The notes under the pieces are model-generated. The model was not told the DNA's origin, did no database searches, and saw only the letters and a program-made list of their open reading frames with translations. A program made the translations under genes and the position numbers. Below, piece after piece: positions 3,959 to 21,672 of a stretch of DNA of 27,346 bases. Origin of the DNA: a virus. Where the stretch lies: positions 1-27,346 of IMG/VR virus record IMGVR_UViG_3300004095_000010; one strand, given 5' to 3'. Each line of letters begins with the position of its first letter. Positions within the stretch are counted from its first letter, which is position 1.

Positions 3959-4950
3959 GATAATGTGCTCACTGCTATTCTTGGCAAATACTGTTGTATA
4001 GTATCATTGACAGTTCCGCTGGCATTCAAGTAAATATTTTGACTAACTCCATTTGTTCCAGTGAATGTTAGCGTCTGGAAACTATTTGGAAATATTTTAT
4101 AAGGATTTAGTAAATCAGCCATTGTGTTAATATTGGCAGTTGTGACATTTAATATTTTTAATATTTGTGTTAATGCTGTTCCAGTAATCTGCGTCATCGC
4201 ATTATACATGGCTTTTTGATCAGCATCAGTTGCAGTAAGATTCAGTGATGATAAATTTACTACCACATCTAAGCTGACTCCTGCGTTTGAAAAATATAAT
4301 GTAAGATCTGGCGTAATACCGCCAACTTTGGCTAATTGTTTAACTAAAGCCAGTGGAGTGCCAAGCTCACTAAGATTGCTGAGGTCAATTAGTCCACCTA
4401 ATTTAGCAAGATCATTACCCCATTGTTCAGTACAAAGATTAACACTAGTAATACCACCACTGACCATATTATCAGCGTTGGTATAAGTTCCGCTTAAATA
4501 TGTTTGGCTGTTAACCGCTGAATTAATAAAATTATTGGTAATACCGTTATAACCGACAAGTGCCCCGAATCCTTGACAGAAAATACTTAAATCTTTATTG
4601 CCTCCAGTGGCACCTTGCCCCATATAAGAATATGCTGTGTCCAGTAACAAATTTGAAAATAAAATATTATTGGGATATACATTATTTCCCGAATGTACAG
4701 GTATGCTATCACCTAAGGTAGAACAATTACCTACCCCTATATTATACAATTGAAGAAAAATGGGCTTAGATAATTCAGGTACAGCACCAGAGGCAGCTAT
4801 AGCTGAATTTAATGCGGTTACATAAGGTAAAGAATTAAAGGTAGCTTCGGCAGTTACAAATGCAGCATTAACTGATATGCCTACGTTATGTAATAAACTA
4901 TCAGTAACAGTTAATTGAAAAGGAGTTAATAAACTAGCAGACTGGGCCAT
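3955..4950 (-). CDS. Putative tail/baseplate structural protein, 331 aa
   Basis: Similar in composition to its downstream neighbour: rich in Asn, Thr, Leu and Ser, with few charged residues. It starts MAQSASLLTPFQLTVTDS directly after the stop of the PAAR gene (TAA then ATG). The middle contains a Gly-rich turn region (YSYMGQGATGGNKDL) and a helix-turn pattern (LAKLGGLIDLSNLSELG). The tight order of LSm-like protein, PAAR tip, this protein and a 319-aa protein suggests one assembly module, probably near the central spike. No family name can be given from sequence alone. Confidence 0.65.
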   Translation of the reverse strand: MAQSASLLTPFQLTVTDSLLHNVGISVNAAFVTAEATFNSLPYVTALNSAIAASGAVPELSKPIFLQLYNIGVGNCSTLGDSIPVHSGNNVYPNNILFSNLLLDTAYSYMGQGATGGNKDLSIFCQGFGALVGYNGITNNFINSAVNSQTYLSGTYTNADNMVSGGITSVNLCTEQWGNDLAKLGGLIDLSNLSELGTPLALVKQLAKVGGITPDLTLYFSNAGVSLDVVVNLSSLNLTATDADQKAMYNAMTQITGTALTQILKILNVTTANINTMADLLNPYKIFPNSFQTLTFTGTNGVSQNIYLNASGTVNDTIQQYLPRIAVSTLS

Positions 4951-15660: not shown

Positions 15661-15987
15661 TTAGATTGTAAACGATTCACCACATCCGCAGCGAGCCTTT
15701 TCCCGAGGATTCCGGAACTCAAAGCCTTCGTTGAGTCCTCGACGTACATAGTCAATTTCTAATCCATCTAAGTATACGTGATCTCTTCCTGCAATCCAAA
15801 CCGTAGCCCCGGCATTTTCATAACGGAACCAATCTCTAGTAACAGGTGCATGATCCAAGTATTCTAATACATAGGCCAGTCCCGAGCATCCTGTAGTCTT
15901 TACACCAACATGAATTCCAATACCTGCCCCACGCTTGGCTATGTTAGCTACGATTTTTTTTGCTGCTGTTTCAGTTATTGTTATCAT
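15661..15987 (-). CDS. iscA: IscA-type A-type Fe-S carrier
   Basis: A 108-aa HesB/IscA protein. It starts MITITETAAKKIV, has the Cys35-type motif TTGCSGLAYVLEY, and ends EKARCGCGESFTI, giving the three conserved Cys that bind iron or a cluster. It is close to E. coli IscA in length (107 aa) and pattern (also GLNEGFEFRNP). A-type carriers pass Fe-S clusters from the scaffold to apo-proteins. It is in the same operon as the IscU gene and overlaps the zinc-ribbon gene by 17 bases. A phage copy could help mature a phage or host Fe-S enzyme; which one is not visible here. Confidence 0.93.
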   Translation of the reverse strand: MITITETAAKKIVANIAKRGAGIGIHVGVKTTGCSGLAYVLEYLDHAPVTRDWFRYENAGATVWIAGRDHVYLDGLEIDYVRRGLNEGFEFRNPREKARCGCGESFTI

Positions 15988-16198
15988 TGTCTATACCTTT
16001 TACAAAGTTATGAAATCGTTCAAGTCGGCGTCTATTATCTTCCAGCATTTCCCAACGCTCATCATTCAAGCCTGAATAATCTGTTATATCTGTCTCACCA
16101 CAGTATTTACACCAAGTGCGATGAAAGGGTGCGATATCATTGTGCTCGTATTCAGCAATCACCTGGCAATGCTGACAAACCGATGGGCCTAATCCCAT
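15971..16198 (-). CDS. Small zinc-ribbon protein
   Basis: A 75-aa protein with two Cys pairs (VCQHC near residue 8-11, WCKYCG near 30-33) spaced like a zinc ribbon, followed by an acidic and then Arg-rich helix (ERWEMLEDNRRRLERF). TAATG overlap with the deformylase gene and a 17-base overlap with iscA place it firmly in the Fe-S operon. Similar short zinc-binding proteins occur beside deformylase genes in T4-like phages. The role is unknown. Confidence 0.7.
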   Translation of the reverse strand: MGLGPSVCQHCQVIAEYEHNDIAPFHRTWCKYCGETDITDYSGLNDERWEMLEDNRRRLERFHNFVKGIDNDNNN

Positions 16199-16692
16199 TA
16201 TTTCTTCCTCGCTTTTGTTAATGCTCGAGTAAATTTCAGATCACTTACATGTTCTTTGAATACATGCCCATCTAAATGTTCCATTTCATGTAGGAAACAT
16301 CGGGCATCCATTCCCGTAAAGGTTGATGAATGTGATATCCCCGCCTGGTCTTGCCAACTGGCATCAACGGAATTAGGACGAGAGATAGATAACCATACTC
16401 CGGGAAAACTCAAACAACCCTCGCTATGCTCCCATAGATCGGTCGAGACAGAATCAATAACGGGGTTATACATGACTATCTGTTGTCCAGCAAACTCACC
16501 TGCTTGTACATTCATAGCCAATACTCGATAAGGAATGCCCACTTGATTTGCTGCTAGTCCCAATGCACTTTCACCTAACAATGTATCGATGAGATCTTGT
16601 TCTATATTAGGTTCCGTCAACGTGTCAAAGAACCAAGTGTTACATGGTGTCAGTAGTACTGGATCTGGCCATCGAACTATTGGTAGTTTCAT
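16198..16692 (-). CDS. def: Peptide deformylase
   Basis: A 164-aa enzyme that removes the N-formyl group from new proteins. All three family motifs are present: GLAANQVG (G-x-G-x-A-A-x-Q type), EGCLSFPG (E-G-C-L-S with the metal-binding Cys), and HEMEHLDG (H-E-x-x-H with two metal His and catalytic Glu). Phage deformylases of this length are well known in marine T4-like phages, where they may favour processing of phage-encoded or host photosystem proteins. Its ATG lies inside the 3' end of iscU (53-base overlap), so the genes are likely translated together. Confidence 0.95.
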   Translation of the reverse strand: MKLPIVRWPDPVLLTPCNTWFFDTLTEPNIEQDLIDTLLGESALGLAANQVGIPYRVLAMNVQAGEFAGQQIVMYNPVIDSVSTDLWEHSEGCLSFPGVWLSISRPNSVDASWQDQAGISHSSTFTGMDARCFLHEMEHLDGHVFKEHVSDLKFTRALTKARKK

Positions 16693-18082
16693 GTTTGTTT
16701 CTATAATCAGCTATTGCTGCTTTAATTGCATCTTCGGCAAGGATTGAACAGTGGATTTTGACTGGTGGAAGTGCCAGTTCTTGGGCAATGTCGCTATTTC
16801 TAATACATCCAGCAGCTTCGAGAGATTTTCCTTTGACCCATTCAGTGACCAAAGAACTACTTGCGATTGCTGATCCGCAGTTGTGTGAGCCGACTCTATT
16901 TGTAAAAAATACATGGGCACCATCCTCTAATTTTAAATCATATACTACAACATTTTTGTCATCACGCTCACATCCTCGTAGTTGATTATGATGTGTGATT
17001 GGAGAAATATCGATAATTTTCATGCCATTATGTATAAAATTCTGTACCTTAGGCAGTGCCTGTTCAATTTCTTCTACTGACAAAAATAATGAATCGTATC
17101 CTGCTGTTGCAAGTTGTTGACTTCTTTTTTGGACATAATCCGATTCTTCTGATCTATCTTGCATAAACTTTGGCATTTTCTTTGTATAAACTTCTATACA
17201 TTTTTTCTTGCCGGGAACAATAAAATCCGGACTTGCGGGGCCTGATGTGGTTTGAATCCATATTGTTCCAGCACTCCATCTTGCCGCTACATTATTTTCT
17301 TCAAATAAATCAATATATTTTTTTTCAATACTAGTAGGTTTAGACCAATCTCGTTGTGCCATTCCTTGTTGCCACTTTTCAATATAACTAGGATCTTGCC
17401 AGTTTTTAATTGAAGCAGCACTGGAGCGTTGCTTTTTAGCTTCTGGGTTCTTACATACATATCCGGGTTGATTCTGTGGCAATACAGAATGATCAAATTC
17501 GGTGTTCCATTTTTTCATTCTTGCGCTATTTTTCTGTTTAATTTCTGTTCGATGTCTATTGTTGGTAAGAATTCTTAACTCATGTTCGGTTATTTCATAT
17601 AATTCTTGCCCCACCTGTAGTTGTTGTGCTTCTACAGGATTATTATCGGCATTCCAAAATATGTGTTCTTTGGTACAAATCAACGAAAAGGTGCCGGGAT
17701 TGATATTTTTTCTACTTGTTTCTCGTTGGAATGAAACTACCAACAAATCACTGATATCAACTGAATGTTTGATTATATCTCTTATTTTTTGATTAACAAT
17801 GCGATTGCCATCCCAAGCCAGTACCTCATCTCCGATATTTAAATCTTTGATTTTTTTAACGCATGTTGGAGTATTAACAGGGGTATTACTAGTTAAACAT
17901 CCGTAGGTCTTAAACTTTGCATCTGTAATAACGCCATCTGATACCTTTATCTGTAACTTCATTACATCTCCACACGCAGGAGCTCCTACCATGCCTGTGC
18001 CAACATCAGCATCGTCTTTGGCAAATGAACCCACATTGCGAGGATTTTCATAATGATCTAAAACTTTATCTGAATAGGCCAT
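16640..18082 (-). CDS. iscU: IscU Fe-S scaffold interrupted by an intein
   Basis: A 480-codon frame: 61 residues of IscU, a 340-residue intein, then 79 residues of IscU. The spliced product would be 140 aa, versus 128 in E. coli. IscU assembles [2Fe-2S] clusters from IscS sulfur. The cluster ligands are Cys37 in VGAPACGD with Asp39, the TYG-C-GSAIASSS Cys (split site) and Cys in KIHCSILAEDA, while LPPVK is the HscA-binding motif. The N-extein is about 80% like the proteobacterial protein. The extra C-terminal tail (HETTNSSMARSSTTDTM) overlaps def. No IscS, HscB, HscA or ferredoxin gene is in the window, so host partners are assumed. Confidence 0.95.
   Translation of the reverse strand: MAYSDKVLDHYENPRNVGSFAKDDADVGTGMVGAPACGDVMKLQIKVSDGVITDAKFKTYGCLTSNTPVNTPTCVKKIKDLNIGDEVLAWDGNRIVNQKIRDIIKHSVDISDLLVVSFQRETSRKNINPGTFSLICTKEHIFWNADNNPVEAQQLQVGQELYEITEHELRILTNNRHRTEIKQKNSARMKKWNTEFDHSVLPQNQPGYVCKNPEAKKQRSSAASIKNWQDPSYIEKWQQGMAQRDWSKPTSIEKKYIDLFEENNVAARWSAGTIWIQTTSGPASPDFIVPGKKKCIEVYTKKMPKFMQDRSEESDYVQKRSQQLATAGYDSLFLSVEEIEQALPKVQNFIHNGMKIIDISPITHHNQLRGCERDDKNVVVYDLKLEDGAHVFFTNRVGSHNCGSAIASSSLVTEWVKGKSLEAAGCIRNSDIAQELALPPVKIHCSILAEDAIKAAIADYRNKHETTNSSMARSSTTDTM
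16880..17899 (-). other. Intein with Vsr-like homing-nuclease domain, inside iscU
   Basis: Starts at Cys1 (CLTSNTPVNTP) and ends SHN before the extein Cys+1. Splicing blocks are intact: block A through GDEVLAWDG, block B TKEH (His at intein residue 79), and block F YDLKLEDGAHVFFTNRVGSHN. Between blocks B and F, intein residues ~120-285, is a basic region with repeated K-x-S-x-K-W elements of NUMOD3 type. Next is a nuclease-like core with SPDFIVPGKKKCIEVY (Asp225, Glu236), preceded by Glu192 in SIEKKYID and followed by a QKRSQQLATAGYDSLF helix. This fits Vsr-like/EDxHD homing nucleases, but the His-x-Asp part is not obvious. The class 1 splicing chemistry looks complete. Confidence 0.9.
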
Positions 18083-18282: not shown

Positions 18283-18969
18283 TTATCCTTTGAATTTATT
18301 AATAGTCGATTTAACTAAACTGTCAATGCTATTTATTAAACTAATACTATGATATTGTGTTTCTTTAACAACCAATGGAATTTCAGTGCAGCCTAAAATT
18401 ATTGCTGATGCCCCTCGATTAATTAAAGATTCGATAACTGTAACAAACAATCCATGAGCTATTTCGAATTGATTAGCTTTAATTAAATCTATACCAGGCT
18501 GCACATAGTTTTCTATTTCTTCTACAGTGGGAGTTATACAATCCCATCCCATTGCGGTGAGTCTTTGATCATACAGACCCAACCGCATGGTGGCACGAGT
18601 TCCTAATATACCAATGGTACCTTTTATATTTTGAGACTTTAATTCATCAGCTACACTATCTACAATATGTGTAATCGGTATACCAAATTCCATCATTCGA
18701 TCATACCAAAAATGTGCTGTGTTACAGGGAATTACTATATGATCACATTCGGCCGCTTTTAATCCTAGCATACCCTGACAGAGTTTAGGCCAAGGCTGAT
18801 CATCTTGATTAATCAAACTAGTGCTGCGATCTGGCACAGTTGGATCACTCCATACCACAACAGGAATATGTTCCTGATCACATCCTGCTGGAGTTTGTTC
18901 AGTCAATCTTACAAGAAATTCTGCACTAGCCGCTGGTCCCATCCCACCCAATACGCCTAGCCGTTTCAT
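18283..18969 (-). CDS. Aspartate/glutamate racemase-family enzyme
   Basis: A 228-aa protein with the AspR-type start GVLGGMGPAASAEF. The two catalytic cysteines of cofactor-free racemases are present: Cys82 in IPCNTAH and Cys194 in ILGCTEIPLV. The WSDPTVPDRS segment is also typical. The family interconverts L- and D-aspartate (some members glutamate or hydantoins) by a two-base mechanism in the cytoplasm. Length fits (about 230). It lies 4 bases from the holin gene (ATGA-type overlap) and downstream of a glutamate/aspartate-type symporter, so its substrate is plausibly the transported acid. Both catalytic Cys are kept, so it should be active. Confidence 0.88.
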   Translation of the reverse strand: MKRLGVLGGMGPAASAEFLVRLTEQTPAGCDQEHIPVVVWSDPTVPDRSTSLINQDDQPWPKLCQGMLGLKAAECDHIVIPCNTAHFWYDRMMEFGIPITHIVDSVADELKSQNIKGTIGILGTRATMRLGLYDQRLTAMGWDCITPTVEEIENYVQPGIDLIKANQFEIAHGLFVTVIESLINRGASAIILGCTEIPLVVKETQYHSISLINSIDSLVKSTINKFKG

Positions 18970-19574
18970 TTTTTATACAATATACCGCTGGCGACTGACA
19001 TTACAGTTTGTCCAACTTCAATATCATGTTTACTGGGAATTTCTTTCCAACCTACTGAAATTTGTCCTATGAATGTGCCAGGTTCTGTCGGTACACTGAT
19101 TCTGCACATATACTTTACTCCATGCTCTACATACACGAATCCCATAAAACTTTGCGGACGTTCATAAGTTTGACAAGGAACTTTACCTGACATCATGGAA
19201 ATGACATCATTATTATTGTCATAATCTTTTGTCAGTAGTCCAACATCTGATCCATACCTAGTGGTGTCCTGCCCACCACTACGTGTGGTAAAATATATCA
19301 ACTTGCGTGTGTTTAATAGTGTGTTAACTTCGTAAATAGCAATTAACTCTGCTTGACTATTCTTGATTATAAAATTAGACGCTTCTTCATACTTACCATT
19401 CATGTGCGGCAATGCCTGTTGGGCGCGATAGCTTTCCATGAATTTATCTTTTTCGGTATATCCGACCCACCCAATAAAGGTTAAGAAACACAATAATATT
19501 ACTGTAAATAATCTAAAAGGACTATGTCCTATCCATTCAAGTAGATTGAGTAGGAATTGTTTGATTTCGCTCAT
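18966..19574 (-). CDS. T4-type holin (gpT-like)
   Basis: I chose the ATG at 19572-19574 (MSEIKQFLLNLLEWIG), with AGGA upstream, over a TTG eight codons earlier. The 202-aa product has a short cytoplasmic N-terminus, one membrane segment at ~20-40 (FRLFTVILLCFLTFIGWVG), and a large periplasmic domain. The end (VKYMCRISVP, FIGQISVGW) recalls the closing motif of the T4 holin T (YMYSC..., AGTITMYW). T4 gpT is 218 aa with the same layout and forms the lesion that releases the endolysin. Similarity was judged by eye. Its start overlaps the symporter gene, which is an odd neighbour for a holin. Confidence 0.7.
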   Translation of the reverse strand: MSEIKQFLLNLLEWIGHSPFRLFTVILLCFLTFIGWVGYTEKDKFMESYRAQQALPHMNGKYEEASNFIIKNSQAELIAIYEVNTLLNTRKLIYFTTRSGGQDTTRYGSDVGLLTKDYDNNNDVISMMSGKVPCQTYERPQSFMGFVYVEHGVKYMCRISVPTEPGTFIGQISVGWKEIPSKHDIEVGQTVMSVASGILYKK

Positions 19575-20829
19575 CTTGTTTTTCCTTATCACATACAAAT
19601 GCAGTCACTGCAACATTACCATGTACATGACTTGCAGTACGAATCATATCCATCAATGGGTCAACGGCTATCAATAGTACTAGCACTGCCTCGCTCGGCA
19701 ATTTTAATAAATCGCAAACAACAGCCACAGTAGCCACTGTTAGTATACCAGTAGTACCAGCACTGGCTAATCCAGCTAATATACTGCCAAATAATACCAC
19801 CATTAAGGTTCCAATTGTCATTGGAGTATCATATATATTGGCAATGAAAACAGTCGCAATAGCATAATACAATACACTACCAACTCGATTAACAGTAAAA
19901 CTTAATGGAACCGTAAGTTCAACTCCAGATTTGTCAAATTGTAATCTAGACAGTGCTTCTTGTGCATAAGGAATACATGCCAAACTACTGCGTGAGCTTA
20001 CTGCAACAATCAACGTTTCTTTGGTTTCTCTTATTACATTCATAATACTGCCACCAGCTCTTACCCAAATTACTAGTGTTCCTACAATAACGATTAACAT
20101 GCCGCCAATAAACTGCTGATAGATAAATTCTATCATTGTGCCAAATATACCTACGCCTACTTTGGCTACTTGTGCGCTAATCATAGCCAATAGAGCAAAT
20201 GGTAATCCATAGTTTAAGAATTTGAAAATACTGATACTAGCTAGTTGTACACTTTGGAATATATCCACTATAATACGCTGTCCTGGGGATTTGATACTGC
20301 CTAATGCAATACCAAATATTAAACAAAATATAACAATCTTTAAACTTTCTCCGCGATCCAATGTGGCAAAAATATTTTCAGGAATAAATTTATCGGCTAC
20401 TGCCATTGGATTAACTTTTTCAGTTACAGGCATAGGTTCGTGCAATGTAATATTCATGTCCGAAGATTGATCTTTATTATTAACCAATGCTCCCAATTGT
20501 ATTTTCTTTTCAGTGGTCATTTCGCTTCCTGTAATAACCACTGTACCCACTCCTATCAGCGAGGAAAGAAACATACTTGCTAGGAATCCCAAAATGATAC
20601 GCTTAATCATAGTCTGACTGCCTTCTTTTTGCAGTAGATTAATTACACCTACCATAATAGTAGCAAATAAGAATGGCAATACAACAACTTTTAATAAGCT
20701 AATATAGATACCGCCAACAGGTTCAAAATTTACTGCAAACTCAGGAGTATAAATTCCCGTCAGTACCCCTAATATAATAGAACCTAATATGGTCCATGGA
20801 CTCGTTAAAAAACTTTTTAAATATGACAT
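19537..20829 (-). CDS. Dicarboxylate/amino-acid symporter (DAACS/SLC1 type), divergent
   Basis: A 430-aa membrane protein with the GltPh/GltP layout: N-terminal helices, the serine-rich hairpin VSSRSSLACIP (residues 278-287), the NMDGT-like motif as NRVGS (314-318), hairpin-2 LASAGTTGIL (~354-363), and a D-x-x-x-D-x-x-R-T helix (VDPLMDMIRT, Asp390, Asp394, Arg397). By eye several Na+-site residues of GltPh are changed: Asp312 to Val316, Asn401 to His401, Asp405 to Asn405, while the amino-acid-binding Asp394 and Arg397 are kept. It probably imports glutamate or aspartate with altered coupling. The gene follows the binding-protein gene by 15 bases. Very unusual in a phage. Confidence 0.88.
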   Translation of the reverse strand: MSYLKSFLTSPWTILGSIILGVLTGIYTPEFAVNFEPVGGIYISLLKVVVLPFLFATIMVGVINLLQKEGSQTMIKRIILGFLASMFLSSLIGVGTVVITGSEMTTEKKIQLGALVNNKDQSSDMNITLHEPMPVTEKVNPMAVADKFIPENIFATLDRGESLKIVIFCLIFGIALGSIKSPGQRIIVDIFQSVQLASISIFKFLNYGLPFALLAMISAQVAKVGVGIFGTMIEFIYQQFIGGMLIVIVGTLVIWVRAGGSIMNVIRETKETLIVAVSSRSSLACIPYAQEALSRLQFDKSGVELTVPLSFTVNRVGSVLYYAIATVFIANIYDTPMTIGTLMVVLFGSILAGLASAGTTGILTVATVAVVCDLLKLPSEAVLVLLIAVDPLMDMIRTASHVHGNVAVTAFVCDKEKQDERNQTIPTQST

Positions 20830-20844
20830 TATGATTTATCCCGA

Positions 20845-21672
20845 TTATTTCTTTGAAATTTCTGATTTATAACGATCCATTAATTTTTTAACATTAATGT
20901 TGCTATATTGATTAGTAATAACATAGTCAATTATAGCCAGTAATTGCGGCGATTGGTAATTAACTGCTACTGCAATATCATCGACAGCATCGCTTATAGT
21001 GATTACTTTAGTACTAAGTGCTGCATCTGGTTTTTCGAAACTGATTTTTTTCATTTCAAACTCATCTCGATATGCACCAGCACTACGTCCAGACATTACA
21101 TCTTCTACAATTTTCCCCCAATTTACTTCGGAGTTGTACTCGGCATTGGGAAAATTAATTTTTGCAAATGTTTCATAGCTGCTGTTTTTGATAAAACTCA
21201 AACGACCATTAAAATTTCTTATTGCTTCATAAGGTTCTCTGCCGTCTAAATTTTTGCTTAACCATAAGCGATTAACTATCATAGCCTGTTTAAGACGTAG
21301 ATAAGGAACACTAAATCTTAATGTTTGTAATCTTGGCGGGGTAATAGATAATTTACTGACAGCTATGTCGGCACGACCATCTCGTACTTGTTCAGCAACA
21401 TCGGCAAAACTAGCTGCATCTCGACGAAATTCAACAGGTACATTTAATATATGTGCTATGCTTTTGGCAATATCAACATCTAATCCCTGTAGATGTTCTG
21501 CATCACCGCTGTAAAAGGGAGGGGAATCTTGCTTAGTCATTGCTACAACTAAAACATTTCGTTTTTTAATTGCAGCGATATCTGGCGGAAGAGGCACGGC
21601 AGATGTAGACAGTTGGGCCATAGCCACTGTGTTTGTAAGCAATAATGTCAAAAGTAATAGTATTTTTTTCAT
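20845..21672 (-). CDS. Periplasmic amino-acid-binding protein (SBP_bac_3)
   Basis: A 275-aa protein. Residues 1-19 are a signal peptide (MKKILLLLTLLLTNTVAMA). The SBP_bac_3 pattern follows: LQGLDVDIAKSIA near 61-73, then ADIAVSKLSITPPRL with Arg114, which normally binds the amino-acid carboxylate, then RFSVPYLRLKQ. The second lobe has AYRDEFEM. Such proteins feed ABC importers, but no ATPase or ABC permease is present in the window. The immediate partner is the symporter. A late-type box lies eight bases before the ATG and no clear ribosome-binding site is seen. Scavenging or sensing of acidic amino acids is likely. Confidence 0.87.
   Translation of the reverse strand: MKKILLLLTLLLTNTVAMAQLSTSAVPLPPDIAAIKKRNVLVVAMTKQDSPPFYSGDAEHLQGLDVDIAKSIAHILNVPVEFRRDAASFADVAEQVRDGRADIAVSKLSITPPRLQTLRFSVPYLRLKQAMIVNRLWLSKNLDGREPYEAIRNFNGRLSFIKNSSYETFAKINFPNAEYNSEVNWGKIVEDVMSGRSAGAYRDEFEMKKISFEKPDAALSTKVITISDAVDDIAVAVNYQSPQLLAIIDYVITNQYSNINVKKLMDRYKSEISKK

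Follow-up and report, generated by a model that had tools for sequence, protein, structure and literature searches.

The iscU gene of the phage studied here very probably encodes a 54-kDa precursor, in which a class-1 homing intein sits directly before a cluster-ligand cysteine and from which splicing would yield an intact Fe-S scaffold. The window, by which we mean the whole virus record of 27,346 bases, carries this gene and its neighbors on the minus strand, and the features used in the following are:

16640..18082, minus strand: iscU precursor gene, a single frame of 480 codons plus stop (TIGR01999 match)
17900..18082, minus strand: N-extein, IscU residues 1-61, ending FKTYG (NifU_N, TIGR01999 and PDB IscU matches)
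16880..17899, minus strand: putative intein of 340 residues, from C1 to His339-Asn340 (alignment, predicted model, residue conservation)
17588..17899, minus strand: predicted N-terminal Hint part, about residues 1-104, with C1 and block B, C75-T76-K-E-H79 (model and alignment)
17348..17587, minus strand: predicted helical linker, about residues 105-184, possibly DNA-binding (model; phrog_655 match of its counterpart in locus L129)
17027..17347, minus strand: nuclease-like domain, about residues 185-291, with E192, D225-F226 and E236-V-Y238 (alignment, profile comparison)
16880..17026, minus strand: predicted C-terminal Hint part, about residues 292-340, with D321, H329, H339 and N340 (model and alignment)
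16640..16879, minus strand: C-extein, from the +1 ligand cysteine (CGSAIASSS) through the stop (NifU_N, TIGR01999 and PDB IscU matches)
16198..16692, minus strand: peptide deformylase gene (ORF list and family match)
15661..15987, minus strand: IscA-like A-type carrier gene (family matches)

The C1 codon lies at 17897-17899, the last intein codon (Asn) at 16880-16882 and the +1 Cys codon at 16877-16879; the calculated masses are 54.0 kDa for the precursor, 39.2 kDa for the intein and 14.8 kDa for spliced IscU. Taken together, the two halves score 202.8 bits against TIGR01999 (cut-off 192.4) and match Pfam NifU_N at 2.1e-47, and PDB IscU chains align with both halves, down to E 1e-55, with the halves meeting at one cysteine. 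These matches rule out a chance ORF and, along with the open frame, confirm the original prediction, which had placed iscU at 16640-18082 and had read it as interrupted between TYG and CGSAIASSS. The frame must be considered real, because the window is matched at 100% identity by two other viral loci, over 9,020 nt by L117 (on a 154-kb contig) and over 7,088 nt by L083, in each case across the entire gene; in addition, one open frame runs across both junctions in another 34 viral loci whose intein is complete. A sequencing or frame error at 17897-17899 or 16877-16882, the weak point named beforehand, is excluded by these loci. Where iscU ends and the peptide deformylase gene starts, the two share 53 nt, read in different frames (window 16640-16692).

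The +1 cysteine is residue 62 in window numbering and aligns to residue 63 of the IscU chain 2l4x. The cluster-ligand cysteines of IscU are C37, C63 and C106 in E. coli numbering; in the predicted spliced product of the window, the cysteines at the ligand positions are C37, C62 and C105. The +1 residue had originally been called the catalytic cysteine; it is, more precisely, one of three cluster ligands, and the main persulfide acceptor of IscU is C106.

Predicted splicing domain of the insert

Residue conservation was assessed in a 33-row alignment of phage and bacterial homologues of the intein (A3), in which two bacterial rows, L141 and L142, are partial. C1 is kept in 31/31 rows that reach position 1, and T76 and H79 of the block B motif Thr-x-x-His in 32/32 rows that reach them, while D321, H339 and N340 are invariant in all 33 rows; H329 is present in 30 of the 33, the other three having Asn in its place. 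A cysteine at +1 follows the terminal HN in each of the 36 complete viral inteins, and also in the bacterial loci L129, L150, L141 and L142.

The structure model built on A3 has a mean pLDDT of 82 and a pTM of 0.53, and was used instead of an earlier model from seven rows, which was poor (pLDDT 50.7). Searched against the PDB with Foldseek, it returned inteins and intein-like domains as top matches (2lwy, E 4.9e-5). By VIA, it superimposes on 2lwy with a Z-score of 18.7 and an rmsd of 1.6 over 131 residues, and on the Mtu RecA intein with a Z-score of 18.1 and an rmsd of 1.8 over 132 residues; in both cases the model range is 1-340, and the Hint fold of the predicted model takes in both ends of the insert. 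Pfam Hint models also match the insert, yet under their curated cut-offs. Two PDB profile matches that ranked above inteins, one to a designed TIM barrel and one to a solute-binding protein, were regarded as chance hits.

Of 406 viral pairs, 21 have a usable dS, and their median dN/dS of 0.093 indicates purifying selection. We conclude that the insert is a class-1 intein that, judged by its sequence and its predicted model, is built to splice; splicing itself we infer. The earlier proposal of an intein with the ligand cysteine as its +1 nucleophile is thus supported by residue conservation and predicted fold, and also by the empty sites and the intein and flank patterns described below.

Occurrence and spread in phages and bacteria

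When viral contigs were searched with a profile, 38 loci were recovered, representing 32 distinct genes, with 36 complete inteins and two that are cut by contig ends; in all 38 the insert lies in iscU at the identical junction. A wider viral search added six contigs to these 38, and again all of the resulting 44/44 loci are in iscU at the window junction; both searches were keyed on short conserved peptides, so that further relatives may be missed. The form of iscU without the intein is commoner in phages, making up 73 of the best 80 viral loci (from at least 598), and among 50,697 phage records, nine matched IscU, with the insert in none of them. Three loci (L010, L011 and L034) show the precise empty site, their similarity to the window breaking off and restarting at the insert edges; in L010, the neighborhood of iscU, deformylase and iscA is kept and the intein is absent.

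A tree of exteins was built from 100 viral genes, 29 with the intein and 71 without, after four of 104 rows had been dropped as short (L105, L114, L025 and L050). The intein label changes 12 times on this tree, compared to 24.7 times in shuffles, although strongly supported branches force only two changes. In 236 of 406 viral pairs, identity is higher in the intein than in the exteins, in 46 of them by more than 10 points, while in the other 170 it is not; these totals, as well as the tree, still include five loci with spoiled extein strings, namely L085, L086 and L115 (N-extein frameshifts) and L087 and L095 (non-ATG starts).

Some pairs show the contrast clearly. Nucleotide identity is 89% in the intein vs 69% in the exteins for L097/L098, and 92% vs 70% for L108/L113. 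For L084/L085 it is 99.8% in the intein, 98, 88 and 88% along the C-extein and 48% further on; where L084 is compared with L085 and L086, the upstream bins are apparently misaligned and were disregarded. L003 and L087 are 100% identical in the intein and for the next 900 nt downstream, with an N-extein identity of about 65%. Such near-identical inteins in diverged flanks would be expected from homing, or from recombination at the site. These contrasts, together with the sporadic distribution, support horizontal spread of the element into empty sites, with ordinary recombination as a possible contributor, and part of the identity pattern may reflect descent or ordinary recombination.

Several loci show further peculiarities. 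In L114, downstream of position 4077, the C-extein carries a 1-nt frameshift and is followed by a frame that by eye resembles a free-standing Vsr-like homing nuclease, and then by an iscA-like frame. L008 and L105, which are from the same contig, have an in-frame stop in the C-extein soon after the +1 cysteine region, with the intein intact. The intact intein-bearing iscU of L005, and identically that of L006, has immediately upstream of it a truncated iscU start of 29 codons and a frame that by eye looks HNH-like (L005:6001-6760).

The junction pattern HN-CGSAIA was found in 30 stretches of genome contigs; 25 of these are unrelated, and the other five are real IscU/NifU frames. Four of the five carry inteins of the window's family, at 41-44% identity, and all four have isc-like neighbors (named by eye from translations): in Candidatus Achromatium palustre (L129), the gene lies between iscS-like and iscA-like frames; in a Thiotrichaceae bacterium (L150), it follows an iscS-like frame; in an alphaproteobacterium (L141), it precedes iscA-, hscB- and hscA-like frames; and in a Myxococcales bacterium (L142), it precedes iscA-, hscA- and ferredoxin-like frames. 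The fifth, a NifU-like protein of a Sungiibacteriota bacterium (CPR; L138:6425-7999), has a different putative intein at the same C63 position, with Ser1 and a LAGLIDADG domain (8.6e-8), which is an independent insertion unrelated to the window intein.

The element is rare in bacteria. Around L150 it was found in one of 42 genomes of the order and one of 369 of the class, each time L150's own genome, and among the 262 genomes of the order of L141 there were its own genome and two weak matches (E 2.9e-4 and 5.5e-4). A scan of genome contigs with an intein profile gave 82 pattern matches but not one relative, since the exact peptide patterns it used were those of the phage type. On the intein tree, which does not include L141, 29 phage inteins form one group (100/100), and the other group consists of three bacterial inteins and that of phage L158; the bacterial and L158 branches are long, and their joins may be false.

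A second intein site and the nuclease-like core

A second ligand cysteine of IscU, C37, is also preceded by inteins. A pattern search for this site in viral contigs gave eight records, in each of which an iscU frame is interrupted between GAP(A/E) and CGDVM, and L158 is a ninth viral record with a C37 intein. Because their penultimate residue is Lys or Arg and not His, the C37 inteins are different from that of the window. Four of them (L121, L122, L123 and L127) are nuclease-free and about 155 aa long, while another four (L120, L124, L125 and L126) are about 370 aa long, with HNH similarity in both that were tested (L124 and L126). In L158:1768-4203 a complete iscU gene holds two inteins, one of 344 aa at C37 (HNH_3, 1.9e-6) and one of 333 aa at C63; with 812 aa in total, for a scaffold that itself has about 135 aa, the product is an extreme precursor. 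Both inteins are also present in L120 and L124, where the second is cut by the contig end. The C37 pattern was absent from all 369 genomes of one bacterial class, and for the third ligand cysteine, C106, a single degenerate intein pattern had no match in viral contigs. Taken together, the loci show that at least three kinds of intein, classed by their sequence features as Vsr-like, HNH-bearing or nuclease-free, and LAGLIDADG, occupy the codons of two IscU ligand cysteines, C37 and C63, in phages and bacteria and at times both in one gene. IscU is in this sense a repeated target of inteins, and every splicing reaction would employ a cluster-ligand thiol as nucleophile.

Insertions that shift the frame are located exactly at the C37 codon in three loci, with 8 nt in L085 and L086 and 10 nt in L115; they may stem from a badly repaired homing cut, or from programmed shifting. 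The shifts of the N-extein fall before position 3624 in L085, and before position 4001 in both L086 and L115.

In the nuclease-like core of the window intein, E192, D225-F226 and E236-V-Y238 are invariant in 33/33 rows of A3, and the predicted order of helices and strands suits a PD-(D/E)XK fold. Window residues 185-291 match no Pfam family at E 10, and Pfam searches gave no LAGLIDADG match in the window intein. In PHROGs neither the core nor the linker of the window intein has a match, whereas the linker of L129 matches phrog_655, 'homing endonuclease', at E 1.4e-4. When the core profile was compared by hhalign with a profile of eight DUF559 proteins, 96 columns aligned colinearly at E 4.4e-4 with a weak probability of 33.6%; in the control, the Hint half gave 0.4% and E 0.16 against the same DUF559 profile. 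Fold-search matches of the whole model were all taken by the Hint domain. Most likely the core is a homing nuclease of the Vsr/DUF559-like type whose active site has changed, which is meant as a lead and not as family membership. The aligned DUF559 proteins carry E-x-D-G..H where the window core has E-V-Y. Dassa et al. 2009 reportedly described inteins with non-LAGLIDADG, Vsr-like (EDxHD) homing nucleases from phage and metagenome sequence, in which a Hint domain is combined with a PD-(D/E)XK/Vsr-like core. The window intein may resemble these in its combination of domains, but differs in that its core has no Pfam match and is tied to known proteins by the weak profile relation (33.6%) given above. 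This nuclease domain, which lies outside any Pfam family, may represent a new site-specific cutter.

Proposed splicing, its possible regulation and host context

We suggest that, after translation, Cys1 would attack the preceding Gly-Cys bond in an N-S acyl shift, and that the first residue of the C-extein, the ligand cysteine, would then act as the +1 nucleophile in a transesterification. Asn340 would cyclise with the help of His339, and the exteins would be joined by a normal peptide bond to give a 14.8-kDa IscU with three ligand cysteines. The unspliced precursor should be unable to form the cluster site, so that active scaffold would arise only after splicing. At the level of DNA, the nuclease-like domain would cleave iscU genes that lack the intein, at the empty site, and in this way copy the element into other phages; transfer between phages and bacteria would be rare.

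It can be speculated, as the original prediction did for redox control, that splicing moreover responds to the ligand thiol, namely to its Fe-S, persulfide or redox state. In that case oxidation, a persulfide or a metal on the +1 thiol or on Cys75 would hold the precursor unspliced, the scaffold would be released conditionally, and the intein would be retained for this conditional splicing; we consider such a switch unlikely. It would be in line with the conservation of C75 in block B (32/32 rows of A3), with the presence of inteins at the second ligand cysteine, C37, and with accounts of the SufB intein as highly oxidation-sensitive in splicing and of the DnaBi1 intein as inhibited via a disulfide (PMC6195587). 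Conserved sites near active sites are, however, preferred by inteins anyway (PMC3359363), and a parasite would be expected to show sporadic spread and a nuclease domain. Among the residues of the spliced window IscU are 27 Cys/Ser/Thr, including four cysteines. Inteins require Cys, Ser or Thr at +1; as three of the four cysteines are ligands, an intein of the Cys+1 type has few alternatives in IscU and would end up at a ligand even if regulation played no part, which is why we give the redox switch a low probability.

That the intein has decayed, so that it no longer splices and the phage iscU is in effect a pseudogene, is improbable. Frameshifts or a stop damage the exteins in five of 32 distinct viral genes (L085, L086, L115, L105 and L114), which implies that iscU is dispensable to some phages. 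The window gene, in contrast, is intact, its splicing residues are conserved, and dN/dS is low overall (~0.09) and in every part (0.071 in the N-terminal Hint part, 0.118 in the linker, 0.080 in the nuclease-like domain and 0.062 in the C-terminal Hint part). Furthermore, in four of the five bacterial assemblies, whose completeness is not stated, no NifU_N gene was found besides the one with the intein; in the Thiotrichaceae assembly there is another, a 306-aa frame. Some other in-frame insert, or an RNA intron, is hardly credible: introns and odd in-frame inserts do occur in phage genes (PMC11855218), but here the predicted splicing fold spans both insert ends, the class-1 residue set is complete and 340 open codons are under purifying selection.

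A spliced homing intein thus remains our preferred reading, and as a kind of element it is known. The closest parallel, the Mtb SufB intein, is likewise a Cys1/Asn/Cys+1 intein in an Fe-S assembly protein (PMC8891592); it differs in belonging to the SUF pathway and to an unrelated host protein, whereas the window intein lies in a phage ISC scaffold, IscU, with a cluster ligand as +1 residue. Neighboring intein sites within one gene are known from MCM and DnaB (PMC10643990, PMC6195587), but the IscU host has only ~130 residues, and its two sites are both ligand cysteines, 25 residues apart in window numbering. Genes for iscU and an A-type carrier are known Fe-S assembly genes of marine phages (PMC5332604), although the main text of that paper does not mention inteins (0 occurrences). 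A non-exhaustive search of the open-access literature found no IscU or NifU intein in print, in agreement with the original prediction, whose author knew of no described IscU intein. The host gene, the double occupancy and the unclassified nuclease look new. Inteins are here placed in the ISC scaffold itself, at two cluster-ligand cysteines, and one family is common to phages and bacterial isc loci; its presence in many other phages and in bacterial isc loci, the C37 site and the unusual nuclease domain all go beyond what had been predicted. As the +1 nucleophile must later hold the cluster, the question of whether inteins are only parasites or regulators as well becomes testable in one small protein.

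Family searches were run on 13 viral records, of which 11 carry an intein at C63 or C37 and two carry none. An IscA-family gene is present in 11 of the 13; in the records of L111 and L108, an intein is present and no IscA-family gene was found. None of the 13 records, which may all be fragments, has an IscS-family gene above the cut-off, and there is one weaker match. Because no phage IscS was found, spliced phage IscU would probably be used with the cysteine desulfurase of the host, and the phage scaffold would depend on the host's sulfur supply.

One further entry, CAKLQF020000009.1, is named Acinetobacter phage MD-2021a and carries iscR-iscS-iscU-iscA-hscB-hscA-fdx with ppiD, hupB and mfd around them; it looks like a piece of bacterial chromosome filed as phage, and CAKLQH020000011.1 has the same organism name. 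In the window itself, a cysteate racemase-like gene above the NCBIfam cut-off (18283-18969, minus strand) stands in a row with genes for a sodium:dicarboxylate symporter (19537-20829, minus strand) and a family-3 solute-binding protein (20845-21672, minus strand). This row is unusual cargo for a phage and may serve acidic amino acids or sulfonates.
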